A stretch of 64,000 nt of DNA, from NCBI GenBank assembly GCA_025558095.1, contig JAIVFI010000020.1, positions 248,001 through 312,000 on the forward strand, read 5' to 3'. This DNA comes from Hyaloraphidium curvatum. Lineage: Eukaryota; Monoblepharomycota; Hyaloraphidiomycetes; Hyaloraphidiales; Hyaloraphidiaceae. The position numbers and the translations under genes are program-made. How positions within the stretch are numbered: position 1 is the stretch's first letter; each line of letters opens with the position of its first letter. The notes under the pieces are model-generated. The model saw only the letters and a program-made list of their open reading frames with translations, was not told the origin of the DNA and made no database searches. Below, piece by piece: positions 17,291 through 18,378 of the stretch.

Positions 17291-17366
17291 GCTTTGACGG
17301 ATGTTTGAATCAATCCGCATCGTTGGGAGAAATTTGCGATGCAGACGTCATGACGTCGAGCAAAGC
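17291..17366 (-). promoter_or_regulatory. SECIS element in the 3' UTR of the SelU-like gene
   Basis: Read on the minus strand, starting 35 nt after the stop codon of the SelU-like gene, this folds as a eukaryotic SECIS. The lower helix pairs GCTTTG (17366-17361) with CAAAGC (17296-17291). The non-Watson-Crick core is ATGAC on the 5' side (TGAC at 17350-17347) and TGAT on the 3' side (17312-17309). The upper helix pairs GTCTGCATCG (17346-17337) with CGATGCGGAT (17322-17313), ten pairs including two G-U. The apical loop begins C-AAA (17336-17333), supplying the conserved unpaired adenosines. Spacing of 12 nt from ATGA to the AA and 22 nt from AA to GA fits the family consensus. SBP2 binding is family knowledge; no folding program was run. 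Confidence 0.88.
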
Positions 17367-17400: not shown

Positions 17401-18092
17401 CTAGGCGCTGGGCTTCGGTGCCACCGATCGGACGGCGGCGAGCAAGTCTGACATAACAGAAACATCGTGAGCGTCAATGGCCGTGGCTCGGTACAGTAAC
17501 CAACCTTCCAGAGGCGCGTGGTCTCCGAACTCCTTCTCCGCATACGAATAGACGACTCCCTTGTCCTTGTCGTACACGCCGATGCCGCCGAGGATGAAGC
17601 CCTCTCCCTTCATGTTCCCCGAATAGCCCTTTGACTCAGCTCTGGCTGCGTTTTGCCGGAGGCTTGAGCCGAAGAGGGAGAAGAAAGAAGCCTTGTTCAA
17701 TTCTCCTCCGGCGACATCGCGGTAAAAGGCCTTGGACTCGTCCAGGAAGAGTTCCAGCGGTTCAGGCCAGAACTCGCGGAACCCCGCAATCTCCAAGGGC
17801 TTGTTCTCCTGCGTCGGGAGGGGTTCGCTTCGGACGGAGCACGGAGCCACGACAGCCACACCTTAATGACCGCCACCAATCGGACCCCCATGTTGCGAAT
17901 CTCCTTTCCGTGCTTTGAGGATAGCTCACCAGCTTCCTCGCGACACAACAATCAGCCGGGCCGGCGGACGGCGAGGACCACGCATGGCGCATCGGCCCAG
18001 AGCGACCCCGCGGTGATGGTTTCCGGCGGTTTCGAAAAGTTGGAGAGCGGCGCGGAGCTCAGCTTCGCCAGGCGGGCGAGCGGCGACGCCAT
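17401..18092 (-). CDS. Selenoprotein U-like peroxiredoxin-fold protein (PRXL2/SelU), Sec47
   Basis: Exon 1 is 18092-17862 and exon 2 is 17808-17401, with a 53-nt intron in phase 0, giving 212 residues, close to the family length. The frame is open except for one TGA at 17954-17952. It sits exactly at the first redox position of the PRXL2 motif: the chain reads ...VLAVRRPG, TGA, then LLCREEA, where most relatives have CxxC. The downstream family signatures are intact (SGNMKGEGFILGG..., then YAEKEFGDHAPLEG). Reading TGA as selenocysteine gives a UxxC redox site at residues 47-50, as in SelU. A SECIS lies 35 nt past the stop. No acceptor AG is placed so that splicing could remove the TGA and keep the motif. 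The likely role is a thioredoxin-fold redox enzyme. Known homologues with Cys make a simple nonsense mutation the only alternative, and the SECIS argues against it. Confidence 0.9.
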
Positions 18093-18378
18093 CGTGTCCG
18101 GAGGGAGGCCGGGAGGGTGGCCTGTCCTTCGTCTGCAGAGAGAGGCAAAGTCCCTGGCCTGGGTCCTGTCCGCGCCTTGGGCACTGTCCGCGTCTCTAGT
18201 TGGGTTTCTTTAGCGCCCCGCGCTTTAGACGCGAAGGCGGCGGTCTCCGAGTGACTCGGAGATGTGGAGTAGTTGACCCGATCCGATCGGAGCGACGAGC
18301 CGCGCGAGTGGCTGATCCTGCCCATTCCACCATCCACTACCATCGTATTGGGCGCAATACATGCGTTACCACGTAATG

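Follow-up and report, generated by a model that had tools for sequence, protein, structure and literature searches.

An in-frame TGA at the redox position of a PRXL2/SelU gene suggests selenocysteine decoding in the fungus Hyaloraphidium curvatum

Hyaloraphidium curvatum, a member of the Fungi placed by taxonomy in the Monoblepharomycota, carries on the minus strand of the window (the 64-kb stretch of DNA analyzed here) a three-exon PRXL2/SelU gene at 18092-17401 that is open but for a single TGA. In all probability, the product is a PRXL2 thiol-type oxidoreductase whose UGA codon 47 is decoded as selenocysteine (Sec) through the SECIS/SBP2/eEFSec route. A fungal SelU with Sec at its redox position had been proposed in an initial annotation made from the sequence, and the gene, its TGA, a SECIS core, the decoding machinery and a set of parallel genes together make that reading very likely.

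The gene model comprises 193 residues encoded on the minus strand. Exon 1 (17862-18092) runs from the ATG to VIK and carries the Sec codon; it is followed by a GT..AG intron of 53 nt (17809-17861), exon 2 (17505-17808), a second GT..AG intron of 57 nt (17448-17504), and exon 3 (17401-17447), whose TAG stop ends at 17401. Direct reading and a scripted model both place the in-frame TGA at 17954-17952, residue 47, within the context RRPG-U-LLC-REEA, and the sequence and the homologue alignment both give a U-L-L-C (UxxC) redox motif at 17943-17954. The initial annotation had given the same strand, coordinates, flanking residues, motif and residue number, and its description of a gene otherwise intact and spliced in phase also stands, there being one TGA only. 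An upstream in-frame stop lies at 18212, with no in-frame ATG between it and the start at 18092. Just upstream of SelU, on the same strand at 18600-18380, the window holds the end of another gene that by eye appears to encode an FAD-linked oxidase similar to D-lactate dehydrogenase.

Family membership is supported by PF13911 (AhpC-TSA_2), which matches residues 57-169 with 60.3 bits against a cut-off of 27. For alignment, 10 of the 12 protein-search matches were used, the two left out being the deposited fragment of the same gene and P0004; no named row from another fungus occurs among the 12. The Sec47 column is Cys in all 10 aligned homologues, and the flanking RRPG, L, C and R are invariant, in keeping with the earlier claim that the TGA replaces the first Cys of the family CxxC. 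The PDB relative, a prostamide/PGF synthase, is alignable at the same place. With the sole in-frame TGA in an invariant column, a SECIS core behind the gene and six parallel genes elsewhere in the genome, the placement of this TGA is more than one would expect by chance.

The deposited gene models bypass such codons. The deposited SelU (DFJ74DRAFT_675324) is a protein of 126 aa that has its start at Met68, past the TGA, and is missing the redox site. Because these 126 residues are contained letter for letter in the 193-residue model, both introns agree with the deposited protein, which is in accord with intron 1 and skips the residues encoded by the stretch of intron 2. Similarly, the deposited H. 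curvatum deiodinase is missing 23 residues around its TGA, including the catalytic motif, by way of an apparent false intron. The TGA is thus avoided in both of the deposited models read, neither of which is modeled as a selenoprotein.

Behind SelU lies a candidate SECIS-type element absent from the initial annotation (17296-17361, minus strand), with ATGA from 17351, TGAT reaching to 17309, a 10-bp helix and an apical AAA. Its core (ATGAC, helix, AAA, TGAT) starts 49 nt past the stop and, after splicing, about 490 nt past the Sec codon; the hairpin would be carried in the mRNA. When 2 kb were searched, the Rfam SECIS_1 model gave a full-length match of 22.6 bits (E 0.24), under the gathering score of 35. 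With the Rfam model as the sole criterion this SECIS would be missed, since the hairpin is absent from the lists of both the 64-kb scan (E up to 10) and the genome scan. The folding z-score is -1.69, with 9 of 200 shuffles equally good, and the stem score, which alone does not separate the element from controls, was matched by 4.3% of 1600 shuffled sequences. By itself, then, the hairpin is weak evidence. The strict core, CATGA[AC]G followed by 10 or 11 nt and AAA, has a single occurrence on the two strands of the window taken together, behind SelU, and the same holds for a relaxed core with a helix of 12 kcal/mol or more.

Sec decoding would require a dedicated machinery, and the initial annotation accordingly predicted genes for tRNA-Sec, SBP2, eEFSec, SecS, PSTK and SPS2. 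All six were found in the same assembly, including the five (tRNA-Sec, SepSecS, PSTK, SPS2 and eEFSec) that it had proposed to search for; a genome with no Sec machinery would, by its account, have spoken against the reading. The tRNA-Sec gene on C14 scores 78.2 bits against a cut-off of 47, in a search that gave matches in all 14 prokaryote controls and exceeded the cut-off in 5 of them, and ARAGORN independently calls the same tRNA-Sec with anticodon TCA. SepSecS on C8 is represented by exon matches of 198.9 (the largest exon), 64 and 27.1 bits; a second match to the SepSecS model, of 30.6 bits, lies on C6. SPS2 on C2 reaches 169.8 bits with the selD model when neighboring exons are included (cut-off 125), and it has one TGA inside that reads LKG-U-GCK, which makes it a predicted Sec-type gene itself. 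The PDB structure of selenide, water dikinase 1, which we take to be the human protein, matches SPS2 with E 1.9e-34 and has LKG-T-GCK at the Sec site.

The eEFSec gene on C1 was located with PF21208 and not with the selB model; it scores 54.5 bits with euk_SelB_III and 69.3 bits with eEFSec_4th, and with exons joined by eye it matches PDB eEFSec at E 8.1e-74. The selB model gave 17 matches, and those read by eye are eEF1A, eRF3-like, mitochondrial EF-Tu, IF2-like and other GTPases, not eEFSec; the eEF1A shows a 12-residue insertion, presumably the one of opisthokonts. PSTK on C2 appears as two weak co-linear exon matches of 22.7 and 15.2 bits, with a reading frame that continues the family, and scored exon by exon it reaches 22.7 of the 382 bits that TIGR03575 asks for. 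The call is based on the two co-linear exons and on the PDB search, in which two entries for PSTK came out best (E 8.5e-8 and 8.6e-8). Another PSTK candidate, on C22, was dropped by eye as KTI12; it carries RYEEPIETNRWDSP, which we take to be a KTI12 motif. SBP2 on C31 was recognized through an L7Ae match of 27.5 bits.

Six genes besides SelU have a TGA at the Sec position together with a SECIS-like hairpin, namely SPS2, thioredoxin reductase (TrxR), SelenoK, SelenoH, a deiodinase homologue and a SelW-like gene. Including SelU, this makes seven candidate selenoprotein genes, of which the SelW-like one is weak. None of the seven hairpins reaches the Rfam SECIS gathering score, and the argument is thus one from the core motif, its location and the gene in combination. 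The deiodinase homologue (C3, about 1122545-1123270, plus strand) reads SHS-U-PPF, scores 84.1 bits with PF00837, matches a deiodinase type II structure at E 2.1e-13, and is followed by a SECIS match of 32.8 bits. SelenoK ends in MPGGGGSUGR and has a SECIS match of 28.7 bits and a PF10961 score of 37.1 bits, its gene model allowing four splice-acceptor choices. In SelenoH, whose SECIS match is 21.6 bits, the motif CNSU arises across a splice; CNSU and KPRRGAF are presumably SelenoH motifs, while TIGR02174 gives 24.4 bits, under its cut-off of 34.2, and Pfam gives no match. The minus-strand gene at C41:18500-21500 (SECIS 21.9 bits) has the motif GVKU in place of CxxU, so that the usual partner Cys is missing, and its family scores lie below the cut-offs (Rdx 17.8 of 22.6 bits, TIGR02174 22.3 of 34.2); for these reasons it is named SelW-like only.

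The thioredoxin reductase gene (C15:697192-698834, minus strand) is built from exon matches of 250.9, 168.4 and 157.8 bits, each of which alone is below the cut-off of 475.85 of the thioredoxin/glutathione reductase model TIGR01438. Its frame ends SGCUG-stop, i.e., with a GCUG C-terminus, and the hairpin lies about 140 nt further on along the same strand. The gene appears to be of the large type; Dikarya have the small TrxR and are not known to have the large type. Two more reductase-family matches with one TGA inside, which may or may not belong to an intron, were seen on the minus strand, at C1:1423969-1425174 and C3:328377-329348. Glutathione peroxidase (GPx) loci were found on C34, C16, C14 and C19, and the two that were read, on C34 and C16, are by eye of the Cys type and were rejected as Sec genes.

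The hairpins were also considered genome-wide. When the genome was searched with the Rfam SECIS model, accepting E up to 10, five matches were obtained, of 36.2, 32.8, 28.7, 21.9 and 21.6 bits (E between 1.7e-4 and 1.79), and a selenoprotein-type gene lies upstream of four of the five (the deiodinase homologue, SelenoK, the SelW-like gene and SelenoH). The same scan gave matches in 4 of 14 prokaryote controls, none above the cut-off. Seven SECIS-like elements were aligned, six from Sec genes and one from a gene of the Cys type on C30, and each shows CATGA[AC]G, a spacer of 10 or 11 nt, and AAA; the MAFFT alignment is good on the 5' side only. The SPS2 hairpin, which has the same core as the others, was missed by the Rfam genome scan. 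A SECIS pattern scan of the genome produced 137 matches vs 84 for the reversed pattern. From 100 of these matches, up to C28 and in part overlapping, 80 regions were taken and scored together with the seven known SECIS elements, giving 87 rows, of which 65 were without a helix, SPS2 being among those that failed this filter. The top unassigned candidate, fourth of 87, was C15:696838-696943, and it was so ranked before the TrxR gene was searched for. The Rfam model does not recognize the TrxR hairpin, and the score that put this hairpin fourth was reached by 2.1% of shuffled controls; at that rate 80 candidates should contain one or two such hairpins, and on its own the score therefore carries little weight. 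TrxR is one further candidate from the scoring confirmed through its gene, and upstream of two other scored candidates no selenoprotein was recognizable by eye. The scoring also gave weaker SECIS-like candidates (L140, L142, L093 and others) to which no confirmed gene belongs.

The best SECIS match in the genome belongs to a gene of the Cys type. A PRXL2-like gene on the minus strand of C30 (526000-529500) reads, when spliced by eye, RRAG-CCLC-RED, and it matches family models weakly (Redoxin 15.7 bits, SelL_rel_redox 15.8). The hairpin behind it (527729-527668), at 36.2 bits, is the only match above the Rfam cut-off. It could be a relic SECIS left after a Sec-to-Cys change, or it could be due to chance.

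Other explanations of the SelU TGA can be weighed against these data. The Cys found at this site in all 10 relatives is what one would expect if the TGA were a nonsense mutation or a miscall in an ordinary Cys-type PRXL2 gene; however, the remainder of the gene is intact, a SECIS core lies behind it, and the genome has both the Sec machinery and six other genes in which a TGA stands where Sec is expected, and we judge a pseudogene or sequencing error to be very improbable. Translation might instead halt at the TGA or start downstream of it, the true product then being the 126-aa protein from Met68, just as the deposited model has it. Such a product would lose the RRPGxLC active site conserved in 10 of 10 homologues, and the deposited deiodinase avoids its TGA in the same way at the cost of 23 residues with the catalytic motif, which leaves this alternative extremely unlikely.

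There is scarcely any probability, in our estimate, that the TGA is read as another amino acid, through plain readthrough or a changed code. An in-frame TGA with conserved sequence on either side would suit this reading, but TGA also terminates the deiodinase and SelenoH frames in the models, the deiodinase end being the deposited end, and it is therefore not generally a sense codon; moreover, the genome has the Sec machinery and the gene is followed by a SECIS core. Decoding as Sec remains the preferred reading. By this route, the 3' SECIS hairpin would recruit SBP2 and eEFSec bearing Sec-tRNA(Sec), and the ribosome would insert Sec at the UGA, which precedes the hairpin by about 490 nt in the spliced message, and terminate at the TAG. 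The tRNA-Sec would first be charged with Ser; Sec would then be made on the tRNA through phosphorylation by PSTK and the subsequent action of SepSecS with selenophosphate from SPS2, a selenophosphate source that would itself be a selenoprotein. Mature SelU would have a UxxC redox site, of the selenenylsulfide type, replacing the usual CxxC.

The predicted SECIS reader has an unusual architecture. The SBP2 exon (C31 near 198350; L060 1939-3150) is open from the L7Ae part straight into ankyrin repeats, and the encompassing region (L060 1704-3150, with the letters before the exon joined by eye) scores 65.5 bits with PF12796 and 28.2 bits with PF01248. Its RNA-binding region resembles that of the SBP2 in PDB 7zjw (presumably human), with KAKxKRRxVLGLREV and VGIxSYDGA in common (E 1.8e-19; next protein E 0.009), whereas the Hyaloraphidium protein adds the ankyrin-repeat region in the same open exon. 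A metagenome protein of 404 aa, P0021, also has the repeats, preceded by a counterpart of the SBP2-type domain's second half (64% identity, with 62% of the queried region aligned); its SBP2 half is assigned from the alignment, because Pfam scores its ankyrin part only. The remaining 17 of the 18 matches of the SBP2 search have PF01248 only. On balance, we favor the view that this lineage keeps a sizeable selenoproteome of seven genes, uses canonical ATGA/AAA/TGA SECIS rather than altered RNA signals, and reads them with a new SBP2-ankyrin architecture.

SelU of H. curvatum belongs to the same family as animal SelU/PRXL2, animal SelU having Sec at the first position of the motif. Its redox residue stands between RRPG and LCREEA, and the frog Cys forms agree with it in this. 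It differs from frog PRXL2A in that it has, by eye, no N-terminal hydrophobic extension, and in that its host is a fungus. For a long time the ability to read a stop codon as Sec was believed to be lost in fungi. Mariotti et al. in 2019 reportedly state in their abstract that most fungal selenoproteins are without a consensus SECIS, and Gonapodya, a relative of Hyaloraphidium, is said to be among their nine Sec-using fungi. As far as the available text of the sources goes, the nine are early-branching species, seven of them gut fungi of the order Harpellales, and belong to Chytridiomycota, Zoopagomycota and Mucoromycota (PMC10386755, PMC11378755, PMC10778597, PMC6627142); one, Zancudomyces culisetae, has SecS and expressed selenoprotein genes, according to the portion consulted (PMC12611240). 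These fungi and Hyaloraphidium are alike, to the extent covered by those texts, in having the machinery and selenoproteins outside Dikarya (Mariotti et al. 2019; PMC10386755, PMC12611240, PMC11378755, PMC10778597, PMC6627142), whereas the SECIS of Hyaloraphidium are of the canonical ATGA/AAA/TGA type. The Dictyostelium selenoproteome, as described in the accessible part of PMC2375036, similarly has Sec in SPS2, in SelK and in a deiodinase homologue, and SECIS with unpaired AAA; Dictyostelium is not a fungus, however, and relative to that set Hyaloraphidium adds SelU, SelH, TrxR and a SelW-like gene.

The initial annotation considered this a sign of a rarely described system. Rare it is, yet not undescribed, because Sec has already been published, in the sources as far as available, for nine fungal species. 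Sec use by early-branching fungi is thus already known, and what appears to be new is the species, the canonical-type SECIS set, the fusion of SBP2 with ankyrin repeats and a SECIS-like hairpin behind a PRXL2-like gene of the Cys type. No report of Sec in Hyaloraphidium was found in the literature searched, which misses most subscription journals. The two deposited models that avoid their TGA illustrate how standard annotation hides such genes. If the reading of SelU is true, it adds a case of Sec use in another fungal phylum, where the machinery is complete and accompanied by seven candidate selenoproteins and SECIS of canonical type, and would fit vertical inheritance of the Sec trait in opisthokonts; fungal Sec decoding would thereby become testable.
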